A stretch of 37,382 nucleotides of DNA from Acidobacteriota bacterium (lineage in GTDB: Bacteria; Acidobacteriota; Terriglobia; Bryobacterales; Bryobacteraceae), in contig JAKAJI010000008.1 of assembly GCA_021813825.1 (NCBI GenBank), positions 1 through 37,382 on the forward strand. Direction: 5' to 3'. The translations under genes were made by a program, and so were the position numbers. Positions 1 through 24,467 of the stretch are shown here, piece after piece. The notes under the pieces are model-generated. The model saw only the letters and a program-made list of their open reading frames with translations, did not search any database and was not told the DNA's origin. The first letter of the stretch is position 1. Every line of letters begins with the position of its first letter.

Positions 1-146
1 GCAGGGCGGGGGATTTTGCGTTTACAGATCCGTGGGACGGGACGGTGTATCCATCGTGCAGCCTAGCGGCGGACACCATGACGGAGACGTTTCTCGCGGA
101 GACGCAAGGGGCGACGGTGCTGACAGTGCGAGAGAACCGGAGCTGA
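1..146 (+). CDS. C-terminal end of a tail-module protein (partial)
   Basis: An open frame read from base 3 runs in from the left edge and stops at TGA 144-146. It gives about 47 residues, including FTDPWDGTVYPSC, and ends in ENRS. The next gene starts one base after this stop, so the two are probably co-translated parts of the tail module. The fragment is too short to place in a family; I call it a tail-module gene only because of its position. The start and the bulk of the protein are outside the window. Confidence 0.45.
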   Translation, partial: RAGDFAFTDPWDGTVYPSCSLAADTMTETFLAETQGATVLTVRENRS

Positions 147-147
147 G

Positions 148-945
148 ATGCTTTTCTATCCCCGATTGTCGAGCGGTGGCACGAGCCAGTTTCCGATTGC
201 GCGGCAGGAGACGCACAGGACGGTTCAGAGCGCGATGCCGAGCGGCGCGACGGTCCGCTCGTCGGATACGGGTGCGGACTCGGTGCAATGGAAGCTGACT
301 TACTCGCATCTGACGGATGCGGAGTGGGCGGCGATTGAGTCGCTGTACAAGGCGGCGCAAGGAAGGCTCAATGCATTTACATTTCTCGATCCAACAGACA
401 ACCTGCTGGTGTGGAGTTCGGACCTGACGAACCCGGTGTGGACGACGGACCCAATGGTGACGGTGGGAGCCGGGATTGGCGACCCGAACGGGGGGGCGGG
501 CGCGTTCCGGTTGACCAACGGCGGGCAGGCATTGCAAGGCGTGGGGCAGACGCTGCCGGCTCCGGCGGGGTTGATTTATGCCTTCAGTGTGTATGTGTCA
601 AGTACGGCGCCGGCGAGCGTGAGCTTAGTAGCGACGGACGGGACGGCCGTGCTGCACGACACGGTGAACGCGACAGCAGGGTGGACGCGAGTGCAGATGC
701 AGAGCCTGTTGCCGAGCAGCCAGGGGACGATCACGTTCCGGATAGAGCTTGGTCCCGGAGCGCAGGTGAATGTATTCGGGCCGCAGGTGGAGGCGCAGCC
801 GACGGCGAGTTTGTACAAAGCAACCGCGGGACGGGGTGGTGTGTATCCGGAAAGCCGCTTCGCACAAGACGAGATCCAGCGAGTGTCCACGGGCGTGAAT
901 CAGAACGCGGCGGTGATTCAGATCTTCACGACGATTCCGGATTAG
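148..945 (+). CDS. Phage minor-tail-like protein (gpM/DUF2460-like) with lectin-like C-terminal domain
   Basis: This 265-residue protein appears to have two parts. Residues 1-90 contain a segment ending in a Leu-Tyr-Lys-rich helix and an AFTFLDPTDN stretch. This resembles the end of distal-tail and minor-tail proteins of the lambda gpM and DUF2460 type, in which a helix precedes a strand with Phe and Asp/Trp. Residues 91-240 begin NLLVWSSDLTNPVW and are rich in alternating strands, like the carbohydrate-binding jelly-roll modules seen on phage fibres. The gene starts one base after the upstream stop and ends 15 bases before the gpL/gpJ-like gene. In lambda, M precedes L, so the order supports the call. 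No signal peptide is seen. The family assignment is by pattern only. Confidence 0.55.
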   Translation: MLFYPRLSSGGTSQFPIARQETHRTVQSAMPSGATVRSSDTGADSVQWKLTYSHLTDAEWAAIESLYKAAQGRLNAFTFLDPTDNLLVWSSDLTNPVWTTDPMVTVGAGIGDPNGGAGAFRLTNGGQALQGVGQTLPAPAGLIYAFSVYVSSTAPASVSLVATDGTAVLHDTVNATAGWTRVQMQSLLPSSQGTITFRIELGPGAQVNVFGPQVEAQPTASLYKATAGRGGVYPESRFAQDEIQRVSTGVNQNAAVIQIFTTIPD

Positions 946-960
946 AGGCGAAAGACCCAG

Positions 961-3900
961 ATGGCAACAATCGACACCCTGAAGAATCTCACGACACCAG
1001 GCACGCCATTATTCCTGTTTGACATTACCCTTTCAGATGGCCAAACGGAGGGTTATAGCACGCATAGTGTGACTTATAACGGGACGGCTTATACGGCGCG
1101 AGTGATGCAGCATAACCTGTTCGACCTGCGGGCGTCTTCCAACCAGGGAATCGACAGTCTGGCGAACGTGTCGATCACGCTGGGGAATGCGGATTCGATC
1201 TGCTCGGAGATCGAGCGGAACGTAGGGTGGAAAGGCGCGCTGGTTACGATTCAGTTCCTGTTCTTCGACCTGGTGAACGGGGTTGGATTGTCGGAAAGCG
1301 AGGTGGTGTTCCGGGGGGTGGCGAATCCGCCCGAGGAATCGACCGAGTCGAGTTTTCGGGTTAGTTTTGTCAGCCGGTTGAATCTGACGCGGGTGTATCT
1401 GCCGGAAGTGAGGATCCAGCGGCGGTGCCCGTGGCAGTTTCCTTCGACATTGGCACAGCGGCAGGAGGGTTTGAGCGGCGGGACCGAGGGACGGTATGAC
1501 ATGTTCTACCGGTGCGGGTACTCGGCGGACGTGGCGGGTGGCGTGGGGAACCTGAGCAATGGGGTGGCGTATACGTCGTGCGATTACTCGCGGGCTTCGT
1601 GCGAACAGCGGGGGATGTTCTCAGCCGACGCGCAGGGAAACACGACAGCGCGATTTGGCGGAATTGAGTATGTGCCGTCGCTGGTGCAAGTGCGGGGATA
1701 TGGACAGGGAGCGCGAGAGTGGTCGCCAGTCATTGACAACCAGGCGCGTTACAACGATTATGTTCCATTGATTTACGGTACGGGGTGGTTTGCACCTCCG
1801 ATCGTGTTTTCGCGCAACGACGGGAACTTGACGAGGATGCAGTTGCTGCTGGGGATGGGGCAGATCAACGGCGTGCTGAAGGTGATCGTCAACGACATTG
1901 AGATTCCCGCTGGGCAGCAAGGCGCGAACATGACCGCAACGGGTTGGTACAACCTGGTGACGGCCGGAGGGCGCGACGGAGCCTTTGACATGGATTTCAC
2001 CGACGCTCAAGGGAATCCGCTGGGAGACCCGTACGGCAGCATGGCGTATCTGAGCGTGGTGGCGCCGAACCGGATCAGCGACGGGATTACGCTGCCGCAG
2101 GTGCAGGTGCTGGTGCAGGGGATGTTGCTGGACAGGTATACGGCCGCGGGCGCGTATCAGGACACCGTTTTTACGAACAATCCGGCGTGGGTGATTTTGG
2201 ACGTGCTGCAGCGAAGTGGTTGGTCGACGGAGGAAATCGACTTAGTGAGCTTTGCGGCGGCGGCGGCGGTTTGCGACTCGCCGGTTCAGGGGGTGGATTT
2301 GAACGGGAATCCGGTGACTGTGCCGCAGTTTCAGTGCAACCTGATTTTGAATTTCCGGCGGCCCGCCTCGGACGTGGTGCGCGGCATTCGGAACGGGTCG
2401 TCATTGTACTTGACGATGAGCCAGGGTGGGCTTTTGCAATTGAAGGCGGAGGGGCCGATTGCGCAGCAGCAGCCGGCGCAGATCGCGTCGAGCAACAGCG
2501 TCGAGCCGATCAACGGGGGATGGCCGGCGTATGAATTCGGGGACAACTCATTTTCTGGGATTTTGCGGAGGAGTAATGGCGAATCGACGTTGAGGGTGTA
2601 TTCGCGGCCGATAGCGGATTCGCCGAACCAGATGGCGGTGGAGTTTCAGGACGAATTCAACGAATATCAACAGGACAGCATTTCGCTGGTTGACATCGAC
2701 GACGTGCAGTTGAGCGGGCAGCCGGTGACGACATCGCTGACGGCGCTGGGACTACCGAATTTTAACCAAGCCGCGCGGGCGATCACGCTGCAATTGAACA
2801 AGAGCGTGCAGGGAAATACGTACGTGGACTTTGAGACGAGCGTGAAGGCGTTCGGGCTAAATCCGGGGGATTTAATCACGCTGACTTATGCGCGGGAAGG
2901 GTGGACGAGGCAGTTATTCCGCGTGACGCGGATTGCGCCTGGGCCGAACTACCGGACGGCGATGATTACGGCGCAGATTCATGACGACGCGTGGTATGGG
3001 CCGAACGCGCTTCTGGGGAGCGGAGGAATCGGACGGCAGGCGGGGGCGGGGACGGGACTTCCGCGACCGCTGGCCGGGGCGACGACGGACGGAAGCGGGA
3101 AGCCGGAGTTCGCGATCACGGAAACCGACACGGAGAGCGCGGACGGAAGTTACATCGTAAGTCTGGCGGTTGGGTTTACTCCTCCGGCGAGGCCGGCGGC
3201 AAGCGCAGCGAACATTCCACTCGTTGGATTGAATCCTTCGATAGCGCTGAGCGGAGGAACTCTAGCCGGCGGGCAGACGCTCTATTACGCGGTGAGCGCG
3301 GTGGACGCTAACGGGAACGAGACGGCGCTGTCGTTTGTGGTGACAGCGACGATTCCCTCCGGGACGCAGACTAACGCAGTTACTGTGAGCGGGCTGAGTT
3401 TCTCGGCGACGACAGCCAGCTTCAATGTTTACCGGGGCGCGACGCCGCAACAGTTATATCGGATTGCGGCGGCGCAGGCGGTAGCAGTTGAATTTACCGA
3501 TAGCGGCGCGGCCGAGACGCTGGTTCCCCCACCGGACGCCAACTACGACCACGCCAATTTCTACTGGCGGTTTGAGTTACTTCCGCAGACGCCCGTGAAT
3601 ATCGAATCGGCGACGACGGTGGGGAACAGTCAGTTGCAGATGACGGCGAACGAGTTTCAGGGGATGATTGCGCGGATCAGCGCCGGGACAGGCGCCGGGC
3701 AGGAGCGGCAGATTCTGGCGAATACAGCGACGACATTGACCGTGGCGCAGAGTTGGACGGTGACACCGGACGGGACGAGCGAGTTTGTGGTGGTGGAGGC
3801 GGGGTGGCAATTCGGGTCGACGGCGAGCGTGAGTCCGGCGACGTTCACGGTGCCGGACCGGCCTGGAATGACGGTGGAGATTTCCGGGCGGGCGGCGAAC

Positions 3901-4884
3901 GTGCGCAACGAGGAGACGGACCCGGCGCTGTCGCCGATTACGTCCTGGCAGATCGGCGGGGCGACGGTGACGCCGGTGGACGCGAGCGTTCCGCCGGCGC
4001 CGGTGTTCGGGTTGAACGCGCCGGGCGAAGGGTCGGTGCAGGTGCAGGCGATCGGGTTCAACACGCTGACGAACACACGGACGATTACGGCGGGCACGTT
4101 GACACTGGGTTATTGGGACGAGTTGAGCGGACCGTCGACGGTGACTCTGAGCGCGGCGATCGCGGCGACGGATACGACGATTGTGACGGTGGGGCAGACG
4201 GGTGCTCAGCCGGGAGCGCTGTTGCAGGTGGAAGCGGAAGTAATGCTGGTGATCGCGGTGGCGAGCGATGGGGTGACGCTGACGGTTACGCGCGGGGAAT
4301 ACGGAACGACGGCCGCAAGCTACAACGCGGGGGTTACGGTTTGGGCGCTGACGCGGATGAGCTTTGTGCTGCCATTCTTCCCGGACTTTTTCGGGAGTCC
4401 GGAGAGCGGGAGTTACAGTTTTCCGATTCCGTTTGCGGACAAGCGGATTGTTACCGCTGACCTGTTCATGACCAACTCGCGGGGCAGCGGGCCGGCGGCG
4501 CAGGAAGCGTTTACCGGGACGACGGATTACGGACTGCGGACTTTGTCGGGTGGGCAGTTGACGATGCAGGTGGAGGGGCCGCTGGCGATTGAGACGAACG
4601 CGGCGGCGCCGCTGGTGGTAGACACGACGCACGCGGTGCGGGATATCTTTGCGATGGTGAAGCAGGCGCCGGGAGCGCCAGTAGTGGTGCAGGTGACGCA
4701 GAACGGCCAGACGTACGGGCCGCAATTGACGATTGCCGCAGGGCAGACGATGTCGAACGTGGTGGACGGAATGCCGCTGCCGCCGCTCGGGGATAAGGCG
4801 CAGATCGGGTTGAACATCGTGTCGGTAACTCCGGCATCGGATGTCGCGCCGGGGAGCGACCTGACGGTGACGATCCGGCTGTAG
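961..4884 (+). CDS. Tail-tip protein: gpL-like Fe-S domain fused to gpJ-like tail hub
   Basis: This is a 1307-residue tail-tip protein. Residues 1-150 resemble the N-terminal part of gpL/DUF2163-type minor tail proteins. Cysteines C156 (in RRCPW), C185 (in YRCGY), C207 (in SCDYS) and C214 (in SCEQRG) match the four-cysteine pattern of lambda gpL relatives, which bind an iron-sulfur cluster at the tail tip. From about residue 240 the protein looks like gpJ-type hub proteins, including a EFQDEFNEYQQDSISLVD segment near residue 567 that is typical of them. An FN3-like domain follows at about 735-850, then a long beta-rich C-terminus. In lambda, L and J are separate genes with K and I between them; here they are one polypeptide and no K or I is present between them. 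The gene is the middle member of a closely spaced trio. Confidence 0.75.
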   Translation: MATIDTLKNLTTPGTPLFLFDITLSDGQTEGYSTHSVTYNGTAYTARVMQHNLFDLRASSNQGIDSLANVSITLGNADSICSEIERNVGWKGALVTIQFLFFDLVNGVGLSESEVVFRGVANPPEESTESSFRVSFVSRLNLTRVYLPEVRIQRRCPWQFPSTLAQRQEGLSGGTEGRYDMFYRCGYSADVAGGVGNLSNGVAYTSCDYSRASCEQRGMFSADAQGNTTARFGGIEYVPSLVQVRGYGQGAREWSPVIDNQARYNDYVPLIYGTGWFAPPIVFSRNDGNLTRMQLLLGMGQINGVLKVIVNDIEIPAGQQGANMTATGWYNLVTAGGRDGAFDMDFTDAQGNPLGDPYGSMAYLSVVAPNRISDGITLPQVQVLVQGMLLDRYTAAGAYQDTVFTNNPAWVILDVLQRSGWSTEEIDLVSFAAAAAVCDSPVQGVDLNGNPVTVPQFQCNLILNFRRPASDVVRGIRNGSSLYLTMSQGGLLQLKAEGPIAQQQPAQIASSNSVEPINGGWPAYEFGDNSFSGILRRSNGESTLRVYSRPIADSPNQMAVEFQDEFNEYQQDSISLVDIDDVQLSGQPVTTSLTALGLPNFNQAARAITLQLNKSVQGNTYVDFETSVKAFGLNPGDLITLTYAREGWTRQLFRVTRIAPGPNYRTAMITAQIHDDAWYGPNALLGSGGIGRQAGAGTGLPRPLAGATTDGSGKPEFAITETDTESADGSYIVSLAVGFTPPARPAASAANIPLVGLNPSIALSGGTLAGGQTLYYAVSAVDANGNETALSFVVTATIPSGTQTNAVTVSGLSFSATTASFNVYRGATPQQLYRIAAAQAVAVEFTDSGAAETLVPPPDANYDHANFYWRFELLPQTPVNIESATTVGNSQLQMTANEFQGMIARISAGTGAGQERQILANTATTLTVAQSWTVTPDGTSEFVVVEAGWQFGSTASVSPATFTVPDRPGMTVEISGRAANVRNEETDPALSPITSWQIGGATVTPVDASVPPAPVFGLNAPGEGSVQVQAIGFNTLTNTRTITAGTLTLGYWDELSGPSTVTLSAAIAATDTTIVTVGQTGAQPGALLQVEAEVMLVIAVASDGVTLTVTRGEYGTTAASYNAGVTVWALTRMSFVLPFFPDFFGSPESGSYSFPIPFADKRIVTADLFMTNSRGSGPAAQEAFTGTTDYGLRTLSGGQLTMQVEGPLAIETNAAAPLVVDTTHAVRDIFAMVKQAPGAPVVVQVTQNGQTYGPQLTIAAGQTMSNVVDGMPLPPLGDKAQIGLNIVSVTPASDVAPGSDLTVTIRL

Positions 4885-4891
4885 GAGCGCC

Positions 4892-7618
4892 ATGGCGGAC
4901 ACGTTGACGAAGCTACGGCCCGACCGGGACTTGCAGTGTTACTACTTCCAGCCTTCGGCGATCGCCGCGCTGAGCGGGGCGTCGGCGACGGGATTCACGC
5001 TGTCGGGGACGTGGCGGCAGCAGTTCGACTGGGCGGTAGTGGAGTGGAACCGGGATAACACGTTTGAGCATCCGATGCTCCGGAATCTGCCGGACGGGGA
5101 CCTGAGCGGGATCACGCTGAGTTACCAGGAAACGCGGACGAACTGCATTCCGATGGACTCGGATCTGTATCCGACGGTGGACTGGCCCTCGCTGCGCATT
5201 TGGGCCGATCCAGGGACAGGGGAGCAGGTTTATTACGTCAAGCTGATGAATTACGCCAAGCCGGCGGCGGGAAGCTATGTGCCCGCGACGGCAACAATGA
5301 CGCTGGGAGGAACGCCGACGACGGGGGATTACATCGGCGTGTCGTTTTTGAGCGAGCAGTACAACTATCAGCTTTATGGGACCGACACGATCGACAGCGC
5401 GATCACGCAGCTTGCAGCGGCGGTGAATTCGTTCTCGCCGACGATGTCGGCGACGGCTTCGGGGAGTTCGATCACGCTGACGTACCTAGGGACGAAGACG
5501 GGAAGCAGCACGACGGGGGCGAGCGGGAACCGGTTGGGCGTTTACGGATTTGTTTCGGGTGCGGGAACCGAGCAGTGGGTGACGCCTTCGGCGCAGTTCA
5601 GCGGGGGACAATCGCCGACGGCGTGGGGCGTGACGCTACCGTTCGGGACGTTGACCGACGTGAACGGCGTGGCGGTGCCGACGAACGCGGTGCGGAAGAT
5701 GCGCTGGACCTACGCGGCGGACCTGCAGGCGGGAAGCTTTGTCCGAAGCGAGTTTTGGGTCGAGGTGACGCAGTGGAGCGTGACCGGGAGCAATTTGACT
5801 TACTCGGTGTCGGGACCGGGGAGCGTACGGATTGAGGACAACTCCAGCCAGATTGTCTACAGCGGGGCGTGGACGCAGGCGGTGGGGAACTTTTCGGGCT
5901 CTACGATTCACTACACGACGGAGAACGGCGATTCGCTGACGTGTTCGTATACGTTTGGGGCGGCGCACAGCCTATATCTGGGTACGAGGATTACGTACAA
6001 CAGCGGAACGGTTTCGGTTTCGGTGGATGGACAGGCGGCGGTGATGGTGAACCTGCTGTACGCGGGGGAAGACGTGCTGGTGCGGCACCTGCTGGAGGAC
6101 TTGGCGGCTGGCGCGCACACGGTGACCATCACATACACGGGACCGGCCGGAAGTTATTTTTATTTCGACTTTCTGGAAATGGCTATGCCGGCGCAGACGC
6201 TGCCTGTTCCGGCGACCAACGGCAAGGTGACGCTGGCGACGGATTGGGACACGGAACACTCGCAGGTATTGGCGGCGGAGCGGACGGCGTGGATCCTGGA
6301 TTCGCTGGGGTTTGCCGGACGGGCGAATCATTATGCGGGTGCGCTGTGGTTTTACGAGTTGACTTCGCCGGGGAATGTGTATGCTTCGGGGACGGTGACG
6401 TTCGGCGGGACGCCGGTGTTCGGGCAGACGACGACGATCACGCTGGACGGGACGGCAATTTCGCATCTGAACAACATTGGGGATACGGCCGAGACACTGG
6501 CGCTGGCGTTCGAGTTTCTGATCAATTACAACTCGACGGGGGTGTGGGCGCAGGCATCGGGAGCAACGCTGACGATCGTTTCGCGGACGATGGGTTCGGC
6601 GGGGAACGCGATGACGCTTGCGACGAGCGGAGGCGGGACGGGGTTCACGGTGACGGTGTCGGGCGCGACGCTTACCGGAGGCGTGGACGGGACGTGGCTG
6701 ACGGACCTGACAGCAACGCCGCGGATGAACCGGGCGGCGAGAGACTGGCACACGGCGTACTTTACGGCATTGAAGGGCTACGGAATCGATGTGGCGGCGG
6801 CGTTCAGTACGGAGTTAGGGAACGGCGATCCTTCGGTGAGCGCGGGCATCGGGCAGAGATATTTGAGCGGGGATCCGGTGTTAGTGAATACGCCGGCACT
6901 GCAGACGAATTTTTCGCCGCAGAGCCGCGCCTACTGGCAGGAAGTGTATCTTGAGATGGCTGGGTTGCAGGCGTCGGCGGGAGTTACGCCATACTTACAG
7001 TTTGGCGAAGTGCAGTGGTGGTATTTCCCTGAACTGGATGCACAGGGCAACCCGACCGGCATGACTTTTTACGACGCGTACACGACGAGCACGTTTGAGG
7101 CGCAGTACGGGAAGACGATGGCGCAAATTCTGACGAACACGGCCGACCCGTCGGCGACGCCCGACGAGGCAGCGTTTCTTCCAAGCCTGATCGGGGCGCA
7201 CACGGCGGCGATCCGCGCGTATGTGCAAGCGACGTACCCTAGCTGCCGGTTCGAGGTGTTGTATCCGCCGGATGTGAATAACTATGCGTTAACGCAAGTG
7301 ATCAACTATCCGACGGGCGACTGGACTCCGGCAAACCTGACGTGCCTGAAGACGGAGAACTTCGGGTTTACGCTGGGGCGGAACCTGGACCTGGTGCGAG
7401 CGGCGATTGAAGGAGGCTATGCGGCTGCGTTCCCTCCAGCGCAGCGCAGCCACCTGGTGGGGATCAGCGACGCATCGACGCCCTGGTTAAAGGAGAGCGA
7501 GATAGCGTTGGGGGATGCGCTTGAGTCGGTCGTGTTGTTCGCGCTCGACCAGTACTGTTTGATCGGGTATTCGACGCCGCTTGCCGCGCCGCCACGGCGG
7601 TCCTTGCAACTTGGCTAG
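4892..7618 (+). CDS. Large fibre-like tail protein with duplicated beta domain and glycosidase-like C-terminus
   Basis: This 908-residue protein starts 7 bases after the hub gene with a GGAG ribosome site, so it belongs to the tail module. Two copies of a phage-type beta domain are visible, at about residues 130-245 (starting ATMTLGGTPTTGD) and 498-602 (starting GTVTFGGTPVFGQ). Each ends near a Gly-Gly motif. Residues 610-900 alternate hydrophobic strands and helices as in a TIM barrel. Two glutamates at strand ends, E706 (FGEVQWW) and E822 (KTENFGF), could be the acid/base and nucleophile of a clan-A glycosidase. The likely role is receptor binding or polysaccharide cleavage at the tail tip. 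I do not recognise a named family for the whole protein; the glycosidase idea is inference. Confidence 0.55.
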   Translation: MADTLTKLRPDRDLQCYYFQPSAIAALSGASATGFTLSGTWRQQFDWAVVEWNRDNTFEHPMLRNLPDGDLSGITLSYQETRTNCIPMDSDLYPTVDWPSLRIWADPGTGEQVYYVKLMNYAKPAAGSYVPATATMTLGGTPTTGDYIGVSFLSEQYNYQLYGTDTIDSAITQLAAAVNSFSPTMSATASGSSITLTYLGTKTGSSTTGASGNRLGVYGFVSGAGTEQWVTPSAQFSGGQSPTAWGVTLPFGTLTDVNGVAVPTNAVRKMRWTYAADLQAGSFVRSEFWVEVTQWSVTGSNLTYSVSGPGSVRIEDNSSQIVYSGAWTQAVGNFSGSTIHYTTENGDSLTCSYTFGAAHSLYLGTRITYNSGTVSVSVDGQAAVMVNLLYAGEDVLVRHLLEDLAAGAHTVTITYTGPAGSYFYFDFLEMAMPAQTLPVPATNGKVTLATDWDTEHSQVLAAERTAWILDSLGFAGRANHYAGALWFYELTSPGNVYASGTVTFGGTPVFGQTTTITLDGTAISHLNNIGDTAETLALAFEFLINYNSTGVWAQASGATLTIVSRTMGSAGNAMTLATSGGGTGFTVTVSGATLTGGVDGTWLTDLTATPRMNRAARDWHTAYFTALKGYGIDVAAAFSTELGNGDPSVSAGIGQRYLSGDPVLVNTPALQTNFSPQSRAYWQEVYLEMAGLQASAGVTPYLQFGEVQWWYFPELDAQGNPTGMTFYDAYTTSTFEAQYGKTMAQILTNTADPSATPDEAAFLPSLIGAHTAAIRAYVQATYPSCRFEVLYPPDVNNYALTQVINYPTGDWTPANLTCLKTENFGFTLGRNLDLVRAAIEGGYAAAFPPAQRSHLVGISDASTPWLKESEIALGDALESVVLFALDQYCLIGYSTPLAAPPRRSLQLG

Positions 7619-7648: not shown

Positions 7649-8887
7649 GTGATTTCCGTCCAAAACGTTTCCAAGTACTACCGTTTGTATGACCACGCGG
7701 CGGACCGACTGCGGGCGGCGCTGCCGTTTGTTTCCCGCGGGGCGAAGGCGACGGACTTCTGGGCGGTTCGCAACATCAGTTTCCGGGTTGAAAAGGGCGA
7801 GGTGGTAGCGCTTCTCGGGCCGAACGGAAGCGGAAAGAGCACGTTGCTGCAGATGGTCTGCGGCATTCTACAGCCGACCGAGGGCCGGGTGCTGGTGAAT
7901 GGACGGATTGCGGCGTTGCTGGAGCTAGGCGCGGGGTTCAGTCCGGAGTTTACCGGCCGTGAGAATGTCTATCTGAACGGCGAGATCCTCGGGCTTTCGC
8001 GGGCGGAGATCGACCGGGCGTTTCCGAAGATTGAGGCGTTTGCCGAGATCGGGCCGTTCATCGACCGTCCCGTGAAGGAATACTCGACGGGCATGTACGT
8101 GCGTCTGGCGTTTTCGACCGCGATTCACGTTGAGCCGGAAATTCTCGTGGTGGATGAGGCTCTGAGCGTAGGGGACGCGATTTTCGCGAGCCGGTGCATC
8201 CGGAAATTCGAAGAGATGAGAGAGCGGAACGTGACGGTGCTGCTGGTGTCGCACGACCTGGGGCTGGTGAAGAGGCTGTCGGACCGGGCGGCGTTTCTGC
8301 TGAACGGCGAGATGCAGATGATCGGGTCGGCGAACGACGCGGTCAACCGCTATATCGGGTTCGTGCACGAGCGGCAGAAGGGGATGGAGATCGAGCCGCC
8401 GGAAGGCACGATGGCGGGGGGGAGTTTCCGGCACGGGGACCGGACGAGCGAGATCGTCGAAGTTACCACGCTTGATACGAGCGATGAGCCGCGAGCGGTG
8501 TTCCGATGGGCGGAGACGATGCGGGTGCGGGTGCGGGCGCGGTTCCGGGAGGAGAGCGTGAATCCGATCGTGGGAATGTTGATCCGAAGCCGGCTGGGGA
8601 TGGACGTATTCGGGACGAACACGCGCGTGGAGGGGTTGGAACTGGGGACGGTGCGCGCGGGCGAGGAGCTGGAAGTGGACTTCGACATCCCCTGTCTGCT
8701 GACGCGGCAGGAGTACACGCTGACGGCGGCGACGCAGCACTGGGATGGGGCGAGCCAGGACTGGCACGACGACGTGCTTTCGTTTCGCGTGGCGGACGCG
8801 ACGGAGGTGGCGGGCGTGATGCGGATTCAGCCGAAGATCCAGTACCGGGTGGGAGCGGCGCGCGGGGAGCGGGCGCCCGTGCGGTGA
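7649..8887 (+). CDS. ABC transporter ATP-binding protein, Wzt/polysaccharide-export type
   Basis: This 412-residue protein starts at GTG. It has Walker A GPNGSGKST at 57-65, Walker B ending D169-E170 and the switch histidine H202. In place of LSGGQ it has the divergent signature YSTGM at 145-149, which is typical of ATPases that export O-antigen or teichoic acid. Residues 265-400 form a beta-rich extension like the Wzt C-terminal domain that recognises the polysaccharide's end in O-antigen exporters. The matching permease (Wzm type) and glycosyltransferases are not in the window, so this is an orphan ATPase here. It lies 30 bases after the tail fibre gene and overlaps the symporter gene by four bases. 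Confidence 0.88.
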   Translation: MISVQNVSKYYRLYDHAADRLRAALPFVSRGAKATDFWAVRNISFRVEKGEVVALLGPNGSGKSTLLQMVCGILQPTEGRVLVNGRIAALLELGAGFSPEFTGRENVYLNGEILGLSRAEIDRAFPKIEAFAEIGPFIDRPVKEYSTGMYVRLAFSTAIHVEPEILVVDEALSVGDAIFASRCIRKFEEMRERNVTVLLVSHDLGLVKRLSDRAAFLLNGEMQMIGSANDAVNRYIGFVHERQKGMEIEPPEGTMAGGSFRHGDRTSEIVEVTTLDTSDEPRAVFRWAETMRVRVRARFREESVNPIVGMLIRSRLGMDVFGTNTRVEGLELGTVRAGEELEVDFDIPCLLTRQEYTLTAATQHWDGASQDWHDDVLSFRVADATEVAGVMRIQPKIQYRVGAARGERAPVR

Positions 8888-10281
8888 TTTACGCGGTTGT
8901 CGTAACCACGGTGGCGGCAGTGCTGTTCGCCGTCACGGCGTACCGTGCGCTCGGGGTCAAGAACCAGGCGGACTTTCTGGTGGCGGGGCGTACGCTGCGC
9001 TGGCCCGTGCTGGTGTTCACACTGCTGTCTTCCTGGATCGGGGCGGGGAGCCTGTTTGCCGGGGCAGAGAACGCGTACCGGCACGGATTCGCGGCTCTGT
9101 GGCAGCCGGCGGGCGGGTGGGTTGGACTGATTGTCATCTTCTTTGTGGCCGGACGGGCGCGGAGGTTCGGACAGTTTACGGTGCCGGATCTTCTCGAGGC
9201 GCGGTATAACGCGGTAGCGCGCGTGATGGCCACGATCGCCATCGTGATTTCCTACACGATGATCACCAGTTATCAATTCAAGGCGGGCGGGGACATTGTG
9301 CATTTGATTTTCCCTAGCGTGGACCGGCTGACGGGGATGTACTGGATCGCAGGATTGGTGGTGGTGTTTACGGCCGCGGCCGGCATGGCTTCGATCGCGT
9401 ACCTGGATCTGATCATCGGCGGGATGGTGACGATCATTGTGTTATTTGCGGTGCCGGCGGTGATCCATGGCGCGGGCGGGTGGACCGGAATGAAGGCGGC
9501 GCTGCCACCGACGCATTTTGCGGTGTTCGGGAGCCTGACGCCGGCGCAGGCGCTGGGTTACCTTCTGCCGACGATGCTGCTGCTGGTGGGCAACCAGGGG
9601 ATGTACCAGAAGTTTTTCTCGGCGAGTTCGGAGAAAGACGCACGCAACGCGGTGGTGGGCTGGATTGTGGGCACCATGGTGCTGGAGACGCTGCTGGTAA
9701 CGCTGGCGGTGGCTGGGAGCGCGCGGTTTGATGTGCCGAACCCGAGGGAGATCATTCCGTACACGGCGCGGGAGGGTCTGCCGGCATTGGCGGGAGCGCT
9801 GCTGCTGGGTGGTATCTTCGCGAAGGTGATTTCGACCGCGAACAACTATCTGTTTTCGCCGGCGACGAATTTGATTCACGACGTTTACGCGCGGTTCATT
9901 CACAAGCGAGCGAGTGAGCGGTCGAGTTTGATCGCGTCGCGGGTGATCGTGGTGCTGCTGGGTGTGTTTGCGCTGTTGCAAGCGACGCAGTTCGAGTCGA
10001 TTCTGGCGGCGTCGCTTTACGCGTACACGGTATACGGCGCGGCAGTGACGCCTGTGGTGCTGGCGGTGTTTTTCTGGCGGCGGACGACGACGGCGGGAGC
10101 GGTGAGTTCGATTGTGCTGGGGACGGGGATGACGGTGGCGTGGCGGCTGATGGGATATGATCTCGATTACGCGGTGTACCCGGCGCTGGGCATTTCGCTG
10201 ATCGCTTTGATCGGGGTGAGCCTGATGACGAAGCCGCCCGAAGAATCCAAATGGCGTCCTTTTTTTACGACGGAGGGATAG
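8884..10281 (+). CDS. Sodium:solute symporter family (SLC5-like) permease
   Basis: This 465-residue membrane protein has about 13 hydrophobic segments. The opening IYAVVVTTVAAVLFAVTAY, then KNQADFLVAGR and the SSWIGAGSLFAGAENAY stretch in helices 1-2, are typical of the SSS family, which couples sodium entry to uptake of proline, sugars, pantothenate or other solutes. I place the start at GTG 8884, overlapping the ABC stop as GTGA. An upstream extension of the frame would run inside the ABC gene and has no transporter-like sequence. The Xaa-Pro-type peptidase gene begins one base after its stop, so the substrate could be proline or a small peptide product. That substrate is inference from context; the sequence does not fix it. 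Confidence 0.88.
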   Translation: MIYAVVVTTVAAVLFAVTAYRALGVKNQADFLVAGRTLRWPVLVFTLLSSWIGAGSLFAGAENAYRHGFAALWQPAGGWVGLIVIFFVAGRARRFGQFTVPDLLEARYNAVARVMATIAIVISYTMITSYQFKAGGDIVHLIFPSVDRLTGMYWIAGLVVVFTAAAGMASIAYLDLIIGGMVTIIVLFAVPAVIHGAGGWTGMKAALPPTHFAVFGSLTPAQALGYLLPTMLLLVGNQGMYQKFFSASSEKDARNAVVGWIVGTMVLETLLVTLAVAGSARFDVPNPREIIPYTAREGLPALAGALLLGGIFAKVISTANNYLFSPATNLIHDVYARFIHKRASERSSLIASRVIVVLLGVFALLQATQFESILAASLYAYTVYGAAVTPVVLAVFFWRRTTTAGAVSSIVLGTGMTVAWRLMGYDLDYAVYPALGISLIALIGVSLMTKPPEESKWRPFFTTEG

Positions 10282-10282
10282 C

Positions 10283-11464
10283 GTGGCTGCGGATCTGAGA
10301 GCGATCCAGGAGGCGCTGCGGGAAGAAGGGCTCGACGGTTGGCTGTTCTTCGACCATCATGAGCGCGATCCGCTGGCATACCGCACGCTGAAGTTCCGGC
10401 CGCAGGGGACGATGTCGCGGCGCTGGTATTATTTCCTGCCGGCGCAGGGAGAGCCGGCGGGACTGGTGCACCGGATTGAGCCGCATGTGATCGATGCGCT
10501 GCCGGGGGAGAAGCGGATTTATTCGGGATGGGCGGGGCAGTTTGACGGGTTGCGGGCTCTTGTCGGCGGGGCGCGGCGCGTGGCGATGCAGTATTCACCG
10601 AACTGCGCGGTGCCGTATGTGTCCATGGTGGACGGTGGGACGATCGACCTGGTTCGCGGACTGGGTGTGGAAGTTGCGAGTTCGGCGAACCTGATTCAGT
10701 TGTTCGAGGCGCGATGGAGCGCGGAGCAGTTGGAGATGCATCTCGAGGCCGGGCGGAGAGTGGATGCGGTGCGGGCGGCGGCGTTTGCGCGGGTCGGCGA
10801 GTTGCTAAGGGCAGGCAGCGCGGTGGGCGAGTACGACGTAAAGGTGTTCGTGCGGGAGGGATTTGAGAAGGCGGGACTCGAAACCGACCATGGGCCGATT
10901 GTGGCGGTGAATGCGCACGCTTCGGATCCGCATTACGAGCCGGAGGCGGCGTCGAGCGCGGAGATTCGGAAGGGCGACGCTTTGCTGATCGACCTTTGGG
11001 CGAAGCTGAAGCGGCCCGGCGCGGTGTACTACGACGTGACGTGGACCGGCTACTGCGGCGCGGCGGTTCCTTGGGAGATCGAGAACGTGTTCGCGGTCGT
11101 AGCCGGAGCGAGGGACCGGGCGGTGGAGCGCGTGAAGCAGGCGCGGGAGAGCGGAGCGGAGCTGCGTGGTTTTGAAGTCGACGACGCGGCGCGAGGCTAC
11201 ATCACGGCGCAGGGCTTCGGCGAGTACTTCGTGCACCGAACGGGGCACTCGATCGGAGAGGATGTCCATGGTACGGGCGCGAACATGGACAACCTGGAGA
11301 CGCACGATGAACGGAAGGTGATCGCCGGGACGTGCTTCTCGATCGAGCCGGGCATTTACCTGCCGGAGTTCGGGATCCGGAGCGAAGTGAATGTGTACGT
11401 GGAGGAGAAGGGCGCGCGAGTGACGGGGGAAATCCAAAAGGAGCTGATCAAGCTTTCCGTATGA
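10283..11464 (+). CDS. M24 family metallopeptidase (Xaa-Pro aminopeptidase/dipeptidase type)
   Basis: This 393-residue cytosolic enzyme starts at GTG. It has the two-domain layout of creatinase-fold X-Pro peptidases: an N-terminal domain of about 150 residues and a C-terminal pita-bread domain. All five dinuclear metal ligands can be placed: D237 (LLIDLW), D251 (YYDVTW), H322 (RTGHSIG), E355 (IEPGIY) and E368 (RSEVNVY). The enzyme should release an N-terminal residue before proline or cleave X-Pro dipeptides. It starts one base after the symporter stop, and its own stop overlaps the next start as ATGA, so it is translationally coupled to both neighbours. Creatinase-like or other M24 specificities cannot be excluded. 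Confidence 0.88.
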   Translation: MAADLRAIQEALREEGLDGWLFFDHHERDPLAYRTLKFRPQGTMSRRWYYFLPAQGEPAGLVHRIEPHVIDALPGEKRIYSGWAGQFDGLRALVGGARRVAMQYSPNCAVPYVSMVDGGTIDLVRGLGVEVASSANLIQLFEARWSAEQLEMHLEAGRRVDAVRAAAFARVGELLRAGSAVGEYDVKVFVREGFEKAGLETDHGPIVAVNAHASDPHYEPEAASSAEIRKGDALLIDLWAKLKRPGAVYYDVTWTGYCGAAVPWEIENVFAVVAGARDRAVERVKQARESGAELRGFEVDDAARGYITAQGFGEYFVHRTGHSIGEDVHGTGANMDNLETHDERKVIAGTCFSIEPGIYLPEFGIRSEVNVYVEEKGARVTGEIQKELIKLSV

Positions 11465-13011
11465 GATTCAGGGCAACGATGTGGGCCGCGGCGGCGTGCG
11501 CGGCGGCGATGGGAACGGTGTGGGCGGGGCAGTGGACGACGTTCGGATACGACCCGCAGCGGACCGGATGGGCGAAGACCGAAGAAGCGTTGAGCCCGGC
11601 GAATGTTTCGAAGATGAAGCTGGAGTGGTCGCTGAAGCTGGACAACCAGGCGCTCGAGTACAATGCGCTGACGGCGCCGATTGTGGCCGAGCGGGTGATC
11701 ACGCCGGAGGGGTTCAAGGACATTGTTTATGTCGCCGCGAGTTCGGATCATGTGTTTGCGATCGATGCGGACTCGGGAAAGCTGCTGTGGTCGAAGACGT
11801 TCACGCGGACGGCGGAGCCGAAGCAGAAGCCGCACTGGCTGTGCCCGAACGCGTTGAACGCGACGCCGGTGCTGGATAAGAGGGCGAAGACGATATACGT
11901 GGTATCGAGTGACGGGATGCTGCACTCGCTGAGTCTGGTGAACGGGGAGGACATGAAGCCGCCGGTGGCGCTGACGCCTCCGTTCGCAAAGATGTGGAGC
12001 CTGAACCTTTATGGGGGGATGTTGTACACGGTGACGTCGCAGGGGTGCAACGGGGTGAAGTCGGCGGTTTATGGGATGGACTTGAAGGATCCCGAGCGGC
12101 CGGTGAAGAAGTATCAGGTGAGCACGGCGGGCGGAGGGATCTGGGGGCGCGCGGGAGGGGCGGTCAGCGCGGTGACGGGGAACATTTATGTTGAGACCGG
12201 AGACGGTCCGTGGGATCCGGCGGCGGGGAAACTCGCGAATTCTTTTGTGGCCGTGACGCCGGAGTTGACGCTGGCCGATTACTACACGCCCGTGAATTAT
12301 CAGTGGATCGATAAGAAGGACCTGGACATGGGCGACATCAGCCCGGTGGTGTTTCCGCTTGGGAACAAGGAACTGGTGGCGGGCGGCGGGAAGGAAGGGG
12401 TGCTGTATCTGCTGGATGCGAAGTCGCTGGGAGGCGCGGACCACCGGACCCCGATGTACCGGAGTCCGCGGTTGCTGAACGACCGGGTGGATTTTGCGGG
12501 TCACGGATTCTGGGGCGCGCTGTCGACGTGGGAAGACGCGCAGAAGACGCGGTGGCTGCTGGCTCCGGCGTGGGGACCTCCGGCGGAGAAGGGAATGAAG
12601 TTCCCGGTGAGTTACGGGGCGACGCCGGACGGAAGCGTGATGGCGTTCAAGGTGGTGGAGAAGGACGGGCGGGCGGAGCTCGATGCGGCGTGGATGTCGG
12701 AGAACATGGAGGTGCCCGAACCAGTGGCGATCGCTAACGGCGTTGTGTTTGCGCTTTCGACGGGAGAGAATGTTCAGCAAGTGGACAGCGACGGCAACAT
12801 CCTGAATTCGACGCAGCGCGAGGCGGGGACGAAAGGGCACGCGGTGCTCTATGCGCTGGACGCCGAGACGGGGAAGACGCTGTATTCGAGTGGTGATGCG
12901 ATGCACGGTTTTGCACATTTCAGCGGGCTGGCGGTATCAAATGGAAGGGTGTTTGCGGTAACCCATGACTCGACGGTTTACGCCTTTGGCTTAGGGGAGG
13001 AGAACCCATGA
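11461..13011 (+). CDS. Exported PQQ-like beta-propeller protein
   Basis: This 516-residue protein starts at the ATG in the ATGA overlap with the peptidase gene. A signal peptide ends near VWAGQW, about residue 22, so it should act in the periplasm or outside. Repeats of the PQQ-enzyme or BamB type are visible, such as [46 protein letters not shown] and a last [13 protein letters not shown]. These are blades of an eight-bladed propeller. It may be a dehydrogenase-like domain or only a scaffold; I see no cytochrome domain or signal for a bound metal. Its stop overlaps the peroxiredoxin start (ATGA at 13008-13011), which suggests a joint periplasmic function and equal expression. Confidence 0.82.
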
Positions 13012-13550
13012 AGAGTGCGGCACGATGGATGATGCTGGCGGCGCTGGTGGTGGGCGGCGCGGCGGCTCAGGATGTTCAACCGGGAAAGACGTCGCTGAAG
13101 GTGGGCGACATGGCGCCGGACTTCACGTTGACGGACACGAACATGAAGCCGGTGAAACTGAGCGATTTCCGGGGGAAGAAGAACGTACTGCTGGCCTTCT
13201 TTCCGGCCGCGTTTACGGGTGGTTGAACGATCGAACTTACGGCGATCCAGTCTGGAATCGCGAAATTTAACGCGGCCGATACGCAGGTGCTGGCGGTGAG
13301 CACGGATTTCAACCCGACGCTGGAGCATTGGAAGAAAGAGCTGCATGCGGATTATCCGATGCTGAGCGACCACATGCGAAAGGTGACGGCGATGTACGGG
13401 GTGCTGATTCCGTCGATGGGGATCGCCAACCGGGTATCGTTCCTGATTGATACGGACGGCAGGATCACGGATATCTTTGAAAACAAAGAGGCGTTGGACC
13501 CGAGCGGGGCGTTGACGGCGTGCAGCCGGTTGAAGCATAAAAAGATCTAG
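13008..13550 (+). CDS. Exported selenocysteine-containing peroxiredoxin (TGA at 13224-13226 read as Sec)
   Basis: One 180-residue frame is interrupted only by TGA at codon 73. The frame before it ends PAAFTGG and the frame after continues TIELTAIQ, so the TGA stands exactly where the peroxidatic cysteine of the peroxiredoxin motif PxxxTxxC belongs (P66, T70, U73). The catalytic arginine R142 (NRVSFLID), the VLAVSTDF strand and a possible resolving cysteine C172 lie downstream. A signal peptide (residues 1-20, ending GGAAA) predicts export. A hairpin at 13242-13261 fits a bacterial SECIS element. Selenocysteine peroxiredoxins are an established family; they reduce peroxides using thiol donors. 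The gene overlaps the propeller gene by four bases. The alternative is a nonsense mutation or base error, which the intact downstream sequence makes less likely. Gene callers would report two fragments, 13008-13226 and 13287-13550. Confidence 0.85.
13242..13261 (+). promoter_or_regulatory. Candidate bacterial SECIS hairpin
   Basis: Bases 13242-13246 (GCGAT) pair with 13257-13261 (ATCGC). After a bulged A at 13256, CCA (13247-13249) pairs with TGG (13253-13255), leaving the apical loop GTC at 13250-13252. The loop begins 23 bases after the TGA, within the range known for bacterial SECIS elements, and it offers the unpaired G-U that SelB recognises in E. coli fdhF. The hairpin lies inside the coding frame, as bacterial SECIS elements do. 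Confidence 0.65.
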
Positions 13551-13596
13551 CGGGCGTGCGAAGACGCGCGTGTCAGCGTGCTCGCTTAAAAATCGC

Positions 13597-13625
13597 TTTA
13601 CATTCGGCCCTTGGTTTGCTAGGCT
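13597..13625 (+). promoter_or_regulatory. Sigma-70-type promoter for the rplA operon
   Basis: TTTACA (13597-13602) is followed after 17 bases by TAGGCT (13620-13625). A TGC directly before the -10 makes it an extended -10 element. Transcription would start near 13632, leaving a leader of about 76 bases before rplA. It lies in the 157-base gap after the peroxiredoxin gene. Confidence 0.55.
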
Positions 13626-13649
13626 AGAAAAAGCGTCTTACGCGACAAA

Positions 13650-13673
13650 CCCATCCCAATGGGAGGCGTTCCC
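13650..13673 (+). promoter_or_regulatory. Alternative hairpins in the rplA leader
   Basis: CCCAT (13650-13654) can pair with ATGGG (13659-13663). Alternatively GGGA (13661-13664) can pair with TCCC (13670-13673). The two share bases and exclude each other. L1 represses its own operon through mRNA binding in other bacteria, so this is a candidate control site, but I cannot match it to the known L1 target. Confidence 0.25.
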
Positions 13674-13707
13674 CGATGCGGGCCGCCGTCTGCACCAGTG
13701 AGGATAT

Positions 13708-14409
13708 ATGGCCACAGGAAAGAAATTCGAAGCTGCCGCGAAGCAGGTTGAGCGCCGTCCTTATGCGCTCGCCGAAGCGGTAACGCTCGTTCAGAAAATC
13801 AAGTTTGCAAAGTTCGATGAGACGGTTGAGGTGCATATGCGCCTTGGCGTCGATCCCAAGCACGCCGACCAGATGGTTCGCGGCACAGTGGTGCTGCCGA
13901 ACGGACTGGGCAAATCGAAGCGCGTGGTGGTGATCGCTTCCGGCGATAAGCAGCGAGAGGCGACGGAAGCCGGCGCGGATTTCGTTGGCGGCGACGACAT
14001 TGTCAACAAGATTCAGACGGAGAACTGGATCGACTACGATGCGGTGATTGCGACGCCGGACATGATGCGATCGGTGGGCCGGCTTGGCAAGGTGCTTGGT
14101 CCGCGCGGCCTGATGCCGAATCCGAAGACCGGAACCGTGACCACGGATGTGGCGACGGCGGTGAAGGAAATCAAGGCCGGTAAGGTGGAGTTCCGTGTGG
14201 ACAAGACGGGCGTGATCCACGCGCCGGTGGGCAAGGTGAGTTTTGCCAACGACAAGCTGCTCGCGAACGCCGAGAGCCTGATCCGGGCGGTGTTGAAGGC
14301 GAAGCCGGCGGCGGCCAAGGGCAAGTACGTGAAGAGCGTAACTCTGTGCTCGACGATGGGGCCGGGAGTGGCGCTGGATGTTGCGGTGTTCAACACCAAG
14401 GTGGAGTAA
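13708..14409 (+). CDS. rplA: 50S ribosomal protein L1
   Basis: This 233-residue protein has the usual L1 length and the signature [16 protein letters not shown] in the second domain. L1 binds the 23S rRNA stalk near the E site and often represses its own operon. The ATG follows GAGGAT with normal spacing. The gene is first in its transcription unit here: the rplK gene that normally lies directly upstream is absent, and a promoter is visible at 13597-13625. Codon choice shifts towards GGC, GTC and AAG compared with the genes to the left, as expected for a highly expressed gene. Confidence 0.97.
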
Positions 14410-14439
14410 TCAGGCCGGGAATCGGAACGAAGGTCATCG

Positions 14440-14967
14440 ATGAAAAAGAAATCGGATAAAGAGAAGGATCTTGCGGCGCTGCGCCAGGAATTCGAGAAGG
14501 CGCAACACGTGTTCCTGACCGGCTACGAAAAGCTAACGGTGCAGCAGGACTTTGAGCTGCGGAAGGCGATTCGGGCGGCGGGCGGGAAGTATCGGGTTGT
14601 GAAGAACAATCTGGCGGAGAAGGCGTCGGAGGGCACGGCGGCCGAAGGGCTGACGAAAGGCATTGCCGGGATGTCGTCGATTGCGTGGACGGAGACGGAT
14701 CCGGTGGCGCTGGCCAAGGCGTTAACAACGTACGCGAAGGCGAATCCGGCGTTTACGTTCAAGGCCGGGATGGTCGAAGGCCGTGTGGTGGATGTGCGTT
14801 CGATCCAGGATCTGGCGACGATGCCGTCGCGGGAAGAGATTCTGGCGAAGGTGCTGTTCCTGATCCAGGCGCCGGCGCAACGGCTTGTGACCGCGCTGAG
14901 CGGTGTAGGCAGGAATCTGGCCGTGGTCGTTGACCAGGCCGTGAAAGAAAACAAGTTTTCCGAATAA
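14440..14967 (+). CDS. rplJ: 50S ribosomal protein L10
   Basis: This 175-residue protein matches L10 in length and in motifs such as [12 protein letters not shown] near residues 49-60. It ends with a helical region (about 130-175) that binds L7/L12 dimers. L10 forms the base of the ribosomal stalk. The gap from rplA is only 30 bases, so there is no room for the long L10 leader that controls rplJL in many bacteria. Control is more likely shared through the rplA leader or a later attenuator. An AACGAAGG stretch lies before the start. Confidence 0.96.
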
Positions 14968-14985
14968 GAGGGAGTCGAAGGAATC

Positions 14986-15369
14986 ATGGCGGATATCAAC
15001 GCGATTGCGGAACAGATTCAAGGGCTGACGCTGCTCGAGGCGGCGCAGCTGGTTAAGACGCTGGAGGAGAAGCTCGGCGTGTCGGCGGCGGCTGCTTCGG
15101 TGGCCGTGGCGGCGCCGGCCGCTGGTGGCGCGGCGGCGGCTCCGGCGGCAGAGGAGAAGACGGAGTTCAGCGTGGTGCTTACCAGCGCGGGCGCGAACAA
15201 GATCAACGTCATCAAGGTGGTCCGAGAGGTCACCAGTCTCGGTCTGAAGGAAGCCAAGGATCTGGTGGACGGCGCTCCAAAGACTGTCAAGGAAGGCGTC
15301 AACAAGGAAGAAGCCGAGTCCATCAAGAAGAAGTTCACCGACGCCGGGGCGACTGTCGAGGTGAAGTAG
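14986..15369 (+). CDS. rplL: 50S ribosomal protein L7/L12
   Basis: This 127-residue protein has the N-terminal dimerisation helices, an Ala-rich hinge at about 38-55, and the C-terminal domain with [19 protein letters not shown] that recruits translation factors. It starts 18 bases after rplJ behind a GAGGGAG site. It is the last gene before a 479-base stretch leading to rpoB, which contains a hairpin, a promoter and a long leader. Confidence 0.97.
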
Positions 15370-15401
15370 TTTCGCGCGCCGTTCCGGGTGGCGGCGCGAA
15401 A
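15370..15401 (+). promoter_or_regulatory. Hairpin directly after rplL (possible attenuator or processing site)
   Basis: TTTCGCG (15370-15376) pairs with CGCGAAA (15395-15401), and the stem continues through C77-G94 and GCC/GGC with one bulged G. The loop is nine bases. Transcription would run into AAAATT, not a U-run, so it is not a classic terminator. In E. coli the rplL-rpoB gap holds an attenuator and a processing hairpin, so a similar role is possible. Confidence 0.45.
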
Positions 15402-15468
15402 AATTGGGGATTTTCGGTCCAGCGGCGGAACGGCCATAGCACGTTTCATGCCGTTGGGCCGATCTGGT

Positions 15469-15497
15469 TTGACCCGACAAACCGTGTTTGGTATTCT
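15469..15497 (+). promoter_or_regulatory. Strong sigma-70-type promoter for rpoB-rpoC
   Basis: TTGACC (15469-15474) and TATTCT (15492-15497) are separated by 17 bases. Both boxes match the consensus at five of six positions. The start site would fall near 15504, giving a leader of about 345 bases before rpoB. This would let rpoBC be transcribed apart from the ribosomal genes. Confidence 0.65.
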
Positions 15498-15503
15498 TGT
15501 GAG

Positions 15504-15848
15504 GTAGGCCGGATCCCGTCTCTCGTGACCTTTTCATCCTGCGTCTTTCCGGGCCGCCACGTCGCAGCGGCACTGGGTTTCGCCACATTTCCAGCCGTCT
15601 TACTATCCGTCTGTCCGGCCGGCACCGCCGCGCCCGGAGTTCGTTTCCCGCGTTCCGATCGTTTCCCGGTTCCCCGGCCTGTGGCGTTCGCGCCAGGGCC
15701 CGGTGAGGCTGGCGCGTGACGGTGGACGCCGTGTCCTAAGCGGCCGCCAGGGTGGCTGCTGTCCCGGCTTGCGATCCTGTAACGGATTGCGGCCGGGAAC
15801 ATGATTTGAGGGTGTTGTTTTTTGGGTCATTCCGTTGAGGAGCGCATG
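15504..15848 (+). promoter_or_regulatory. Long structured rpoB leader
   Basis: No convincing gene lies in this stretch. It contains a GGCG-TTCG-CGCC hairpin and a larger one in which 15763-15777 (starting CCCGGC) pairs with 15784-15797 (ending CCGGG), including one G-U pair and a loop of six bases. A T-run near 15817-15823 is about 20 bases beyond the large hairpin, too far for a standard terminator. The ribosome site GAGGAG is at 15837-15842. The length and stable hairpins suggest post-transcriptional control of RNA polymerase synthesis; this is inference. Confidence 0.4.
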
Positions 15849-20195
<4,347 letters not shown>

Positions 20196-20249
20196 TGGGG
20201 ATGGCGGCGGGATGCAGGGCAGTTGGGCAGAAGGGAAACAGGAGACATC

Positions 20250-24467
<4,218 letters not shown>

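Follow-up and report, generated by a model that had tools for sequence, protein, structure and literature searches.

The open reading frame (ORF) at 961-4884 of the stretch of DNA analysed here (hereafter the window: all 37,382 nucleotides of contig JAKAJI010000008.1, assembly GCA_021813825.1) almost certainly encodes the tail hub of a phage-like particle, and the cluster of phage-type genes to which it belongs is, taken as a whole, probably best explained as a minimal, complete virion cluster that has been domesticated, resembles a gene transfer agent (GTA) and is of independent origin. The window, a complete contig, comes from an acidobacterial metagenome-assembled genome (MAG) of 5.1 Mb and starts within the virion cluster; the host, which the initial annotation of this DNA had taken to be acidobacterium-like, belongs to the order Bryobacterales. 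That annotation had read the ORF as a lambda gpL-like iron-sulfur (Fe-S) domain fused to a gpJ-like hub, and had offered a streamlined phage, a tailocin or a GTA as its source; of the three, the GTA option fits best, while remaining unproven. The parts of the hub gene are these:

961-4884, plus strand: single-chain tail hub of 1307 aa with an ATG start (ORF, Pfam, PHROG, alignment, AlphaFold2 and Foldseek).
961-1680, plus strand: hub residues 1-240, gpL/DUF2163-like domain and cysteine domain (Pfam PF09931, E 1.4e-3; Foldseek match to lambda gpL, 8iyk_L).
1426-1602, plus strand: codons of C156 (1426-1428), C185 (1513-1515), C207 (1579-1581) and C214 (1600-1602), predicted [4Fe-4S] ligands (invariance among homologues; lambda gpL motif).
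1681-3135, plus strand: hub residues 241-725, gpJ-like core, within which Phage-tail_3 covers 2581-2934 (PHROG 31, E 2e-22; PF13550; Foldseek matches to T5 pb3 and lambda gpJ).
3136-4881, plus strand: hub residues 726-1307, C-terminal extension, weakly tail-fibre-like (PHROG 1101, 7578 and 11439).

As had been claimed, the chain runs from its cysteine domain on into gpJ-like sequence, and the gpJ families are matched strongly: the middle of the hub matches PHROG 31, 'central tail fiber J', and Pfam Phage-tail_3 (PF13550; E 6e-7, 30 bits, above the cut-off of 23). An AlphaFold2 model of residues 1-725 (predicted local distance difference test score, pLDDT, 85; predicted template modelling score, pTM, 0.86) gives its best structural match to pb3 of phages T5 and DT57C, which extends over about 800 columns and the full modelled length (Foldseek E 4e-32), followed by lambda gpJ (E 6e-19) and the hub chain 6tba_8A of RcGTA, the GTA of Rhodobacter capsulatus (E 3e-16). 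Viral predicted structures agree with the hub identity obtained from these experimental structures.

At the N-terminus, the match to Pfam DUF2163/phiJL001_Gp84_N (PF09931) scores 19.2 bits, under the Pfam cut-off of 26, and a sequence-profile alignment of the hub family against lambda gpL was not significant; because of this, the likeness to gpL was judged by fold and motif. Against the entire lambda gpL, the hub model aligns over 232 columns at 3.8 Å with a template modelling score (TM) of 0.64. The N-terminus of the hub is therefore gpL-type in its working and fold, yet is no Pfam-level member of the gpL/DUF2163 family. The profile check proposed in the initial annotation, on residues 1-240 and 240-730, thus matched both families, DUF2163 below cut-off and gpJ well above it.

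The cysteine pattern that had first drawn attention to this ORF is borne out across the family. The hub has seven cysteines (81, 156, 185, 207, 214, 438 and 459), and C156, C185, C207 and C214 are the only ones that are fully invariant in an alignment of 135 full-length homologues (135/135). In lambda gpL the ligands of the cluster are C173, C182, C205 and C212, in a Fe-S domain located on the exterior of the hub (PMC10721106); the last two are spaced C205-x6-C212, exactly as C207-x6-C214 here, and the two proteins have in common the motif C[PT]Wx[FY] ... CGYS ... Cx6Cx2R ... FGG. The members of the first pair lie 29 residues apart in the hub and 9 apart in gpL, which points to about 20 inserted residues. 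The four cysteines are thus predicted from sequence to be [4Fe-4S] ligands, and the fold match suggests that they cluster as in gpL; the dispersed arrangement that would have spoken against the Fe-S assignment was not seen, in so far as the fold match can speak for positions in space.

The hub is one member of a cluster of about 15 collinear genes spanning 13-17 kb, which runs from a candidate TerS through TerL, portal, scaffold-like protein, P22-type coat, connectors, tube and a short tape-measure-like gene to a DUF2460 gene and the hub, often followed by a phage N4-type protein. The half of the cluster that precedes the window is found on another contig of this genome, C19 (G000:C19, locus L405), which overlaps the start of the window by about 152 bp and holds the candidate TerS, TerL, portal, scaffold-like, coat, connector, tube and small tail genes; a divergent antiporter gene (recognised by its sequence and by a relative in G107, a genome of the window's own genus) stands ahead of them. 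Profile matches in relatives identify TerL (phrog_2, 1.5e-38), the portal (phrog_145, 1.7e-49), the tube (phrog_290, 2e-12) and the P22-type coat (phrog_283, 6.7e-42; PF11651, 2e-18), and the nearest known phage coat is about 30% identical. The genomes inspected showed no integrase or replication gene within the cluster or next to it, and the only integrases found in the window's own genome are on other contigs.

Among Bryobacterales, 172 of 212 genomes and 68 of 73 genera carry the hub, mostly as a single copy, and none of the listed hub matches of the order has an internal stop. Of 60 sampled genomes, nearly all preserve the gene order from TerL to the hub, and 12.9-14.1 kb separate the start of TerL from the end of the hub. 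Outside the order, 247 genomes sampled across the phylum gave two remote hub matches, and 197 genomes gave one remote coat match. Downstream, at least one of a Wzt-like transporter gene, a Na:solute symporter (SSF) gene and an M24 peptidase gene is a common neighbour in 27 of 61 genomes, from 16 of 39 sampled genera.

Two observations concern the edges of this distribution. The remote hub relatives at loci L174-L176 (genomes G397 and G253) are the only ones from other Acidobacteriota and could represent either the nearest phage or a sister element. Locus L047, a 3.6 kb contig labelled Polyangia (Myxococcota), encodes a hub that is 47% identical, which may reflect a binning error or a transfer beyond the phylum.

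The histories of cluster and host agree to a degree expected of host genes. The cluster tree and the rpoBC tree have 25 of 42 splits in common (label-permuted mean 0.19, maximum 3), about the same agreement as between the rpoB and rpoC trees themselves (23 of 41), and imposing the host topology costs the cluster data 866 log-likelihood units, compared with about 25,000 for permuted host trees. In Mantel tests, every gene of the cluster correlates significantly with rpoBC (r 0.24-0.55). Conservation within the cluster is highest for TerL, portal and coat, whose mean protein identities are 58-78%; the coat, at 78%, stands close to rpoB at 83%. The ratio of non-synonymous to synonymous divergence (dN/dS), taken from close pairs only because distant pairs are saturated, is mostly 0.01-0.3, and is 0.075 for the hub (window against L003). 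The cluster is, with high probability, a domesticated virion cluster kept by vertical descent. Separately, between L215 and L217 (genomes G166 and G172), synonymous divergence of TerL, portal and coat is 0.16-0.21, about half that of rpoB (0.43), a sign of head-gene recombination between close relatives.

Several points weigh against a domesticated, vertically inherited cluster with GTA-like properties. The hub is absent from about one-fifth of Bryobacterales genomes, and since the coat gene is likewise missing from 17 of the 21 hub-less genomes that were checked, the losses are real and the element dispensable. G107, from the window's own genus, is without the Wzt/SSF/M24 flank and has different downstream genes. 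The trees (FastTree, 45 genomes, MAG data) have weak points of their own; of the 34 cluster splits with support, six contradict host splits that are also supported, and an approximately unbiased (AU) test, run with 1000 replicates, too few according to the program, rejected exact identity of the cluster tree with the rpoBC tree (p 0.001). Some exchange or tree error therefore exists between the two histories. The TerS, scaffold and tape-measure genes were labelled by their position and the character of their sequences, and no lysis or regulatory genes were identified among the cluster genes.

Some of these same points would suit an ordinary temperate phage or provirus family of Bryobacterales, maintained by repeated infection and integration, which we consider improbable. 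All virion genes are intact, hundreds of IMG/VR contigs of this kind are filed as viral, a few genomes of the order yield more than one hub match, and such a family would also account for the conflicts between trees. An infecting phage, however, would not be expected to occur mostly in single copy in nearly every genus of the order, beside the same host neighbours in 16 genera, or to follow the host tree as closely as rpoB follows rpoC; nor do the genomes inspected place any integrase or replication gene in or beside the cluster, and the listed viral contigs reach no more than about 21 kb. This combination likewise tells against the streamlined active phage put forward in the initial annotation. 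A domesticated particle that is used for something other than transfer (killing competitors, carrying proteins or effectors, or protecting against phages) and that packages DNA incidentally is also unlikely, though slightly less so: transfer is itself a proposed use, and the variable last gene, of a surface-polysaccharide type, would suit targeting, whereas the superior conservation and low dN/dS of TerL, portal and coat point to DNA packaging having been kept, and neither Pfam nor PHROGs picked out an effector or toxin among the genes of the cluster.

A tailocin, that is, a tail-only bacteriocin, which had also been suggested and which the window by itself might bring to mind, holding as it does only tail genes, is rejected and has a negligible probability: C19 of the same genome carries intact genes for TerL, portal, scaffold-like protein and coat, which are under purifying selection, and head and packaging genes are present across the order in nearly all relatives sampled. 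A decaying, functionless prophage remnant would explain the lack of replication, integration and recognised lysis genes and the real losses in some genomes, but it too is rejected, as very improbable, by hub frames of 3.9 kb that are intact order-wide, by low dN/dS indicating strong purifying selection, and by conserved gene order and length.

A GTA has been defined by six features (PMC9662315), and we term the Bryobacterales element GTA-like rather than a GTA, because three of the six are seen here, in its genes. Particle proteins derived from Caudoviricetes are recognised by profile or fold in TerL, portal, coat, tube and hub. Full endogenisation is seen in core host genes on both sides, in neighbours common to 16 genera and in the lack of a cluster integrase. 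Mostly vertical inheritance with host co-diversification is seen in the 25 of 42 splits held in common against 0.19 by chance, the two trees being similar and, by the AU test, not identical. The other three features of the definition concern what a particle packages and delivers: mostly random host DNA inside it, an element (about 13-17 kb in Bryobacterales) that would exceed the capacity of the head, and passage of the DNA into other cells. Three lineages are formally recognised as GTAs, two alphaproteobacterial and one spirochaete (PMC9662315). We lean, with some reserve, towards an ancient GTA lineage that was domesticated independently, has a P22-type coat and has been passed down vertically in Bryobacterales at the level of the whole order; an origin independent of RcGTA is argued for by that coat and by the lack of close phage relatives.

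The following mechanism would account for the gene content. A domesticated prophage would yield small tailed particles loaded with host DNA, TerL filling the coat shells via the portal. The hub would form the trimeric baseplate hub of the particle; by homology, its gpL-like first domain would cap the tail tube beneath the DUF2460 ring, the four-cysteine Fe-S domain would come next, on the exterior of the hub as in lambda, and the gpJ-like domains would close the tail tip. The short tail, ending in the DUF2460 ring and the hub trimer, would then deliver the DNA to relatives, while the TIM-barrel product of the variable last gene may bind or cut surface polysaccharide. GTA-type DNA transfer is, on balance, the likelier use of the cluster.

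The window holds these further features of the cluster and its flank:

1-146, plus strand: 3' end of cluster gene 12, a small tail protein of 119 aa whose 5' part lies on C19 (tblastn of relatives; C19 overlap).
148-945, plus strand: DUF2460 distal tail protein of 265 aa with a C-terminus like a carbohydrate-binding module (Pfam PF09343, E 6e-7; CBM_4_9, E 0.011).
4892-7618, plus strand: N4-type non-contractile tail sheath-like (NCTSP) protein of 908 aa, the variable last cluster gene (Pfam PF23845, E 9e-15, and PF23844; conservation, AlphaFold2 and Foldseek).
7649-11464, plus strand: host flank, comprising a Wzt-like ABC transporter (7649-8887), a Na:solute symporter (8881-10281) and an M24 peptidase (10283-11464) (Pfam).

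The DUF2460 gene is conserved in about 60 genomes, and its family and position match gp12 of RcGTA. The NCTSP-like last gene occurs in 38 of the 60 clusters sampled and is absent from entire genera; in the window its product combines an NCTSP N-terminus, a carbohydrate-binding-like jelly roll and a TIM barrel with invariant E641, E706 and E822, and its AlphaFold2 model (pLDDT 90) matches the N4 tail chains 9yf5_SA and 9lc0_M. The likeness to the N4 non-contractile tail sheath lies in the TIM barrel (TM 0.61); unlike the N4 protein, the window protein sits after a siphophage-type hub and bears carbohydrate-binding-like domains, and it may be a surface glycan hydrolase or a receptor module. Past the M24 peptidase follow a BamB-like gene, rplA, rplJ, rplL, rpoB (TIGR02013) and rpoC; in the window (7649-24467) the cluster thus stands about 6 kb ahead of rplA/J/L-rpoB-rpoC, with the transporter, symporter, peptidase and BamB-like genes between.

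On C19, the candidate TerS (locus L405, G000:C19, 9077-9472, minus strand) is a small ORF that overlaps the start of TerL; across about 20 genomes it has a conserved C-terminal motif, IRLLQL...EI.V.WVE, and a variable N-terminus. The tape-measure-like gene encodes about 225-245 aa, similar in length to its RcGTA counterpart. In L223 (genome G200, from the second family of the order) extra genes, including those for products of 601 and 242 aa, lie between the tape-measure-like gene and gene 12 and possibly encode fibres; a longer ancestral tape measure in this family (f2), suspected from this locus, was ruled out in favour of these inserted genes.

A Bryobacterales-specific provirus group with a common gene order, group (i), which includes Ca. 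Solibacter usitatus, KBS 96 and Paludibaculum, was described in Microbiome in 2025 (PMC11924767), and is, to judge by its description, probably the same element. That study treats the group as proviruses without testing domestication, and the phrase 'gene transfer' is absent from its text. We found no description of a GTA in Acidobacteriota in the open-access literature, and the order-wide set is not described as such in the literature found. IMG/VR likewise files the element as viral (longest contig 21.2 kb among the best matches listed): hundreds of its contigs (L064-L143 and L297-L374, among others) correspond to the host-inherited cluster, and many of them measure 13-17 kb and stop at its boundaries. 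These contigs and the published provirus group may therefore be host genes, which would bias and inflate counts of soil viruses. If the GTA-like reading is true, it adds an independent GTA origin in a dominant soil phylum and a route of gene exchange for bacteria with large genomes; Bryobacterales are abundant in soil, and the reading can be tested in existing isolates, the cultured Bryobacteraceae strain F-183 (AP025252, locus L040) being one carrier.

Set beside known tail tips, the fusion of gpL and gpJ that had been singled out in the initial annotation is itself ordinary. The tip is a single chain, and profile searches recognised neither a lambda K-like peptidase nor a separate gpI gene among the cluster genes, as had been noted; T5 and most phages have fused hubs, however, and a one-chain hub was described in 2026 as usual, with the split in lambda as the exception (PMC13243795). 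The baseplate hub pb3 of T5 (7zqp, 7zhj; DT57C 8hqz) likewise joins gpL-like and gpJ-like domains in a single chain, but is only about 15% identical in sequence to the window hub and is without the four-cysteine motif (its cysteines are at 22, 158, 316 and 327). Lambda has the Fe-S cysteine motif in gpL and the gpJ core fold, but divides them between separate chains (gpL, gpI and gpJ), has K and I between the genes for gpL and gpJ, and lacks the roughly 20 additional residues between the first two cysteines. Because T5 pb3 is without those cysteines, the retention of a gpL-type Fe-S motif within a single hub chain is a modest departure, a small variation that shows that a T5-like single chain can retain a lambda-like motif and that is useful for probing the role of the Fe-S cluster.

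Among GTAs, RcGTA (Rhodogtaviriformidae, g1-g15) is similar in having about 15 virion genes, arranged much as here with DUF2460 and then the hub, a Fe-S hub protein, a short tape-measure-sized gene, order-wide vertical descent and a hub chain of matching fold. It differs in its phylum, in its HK97-type coat (g5, HK97-MCP; PMC9662315) as opposed to the P22/phrog_283-type coat of Bryobacterales, and in building the hub from gp13 and gp15 rather than one chain. The FpGTA of Faecalibacterium (PMC12946183) is, like the Bryobacterales cluster, a recently proposed GTA-like operon outside Alphaproteobacteria, but is podovirus-like and of genus-level distribution. Particle production and transfer are properties of RcGTA, and evidence of packaged DNA is available for FpGTA, whereas the Bryobacterales cluster is known from its genes.

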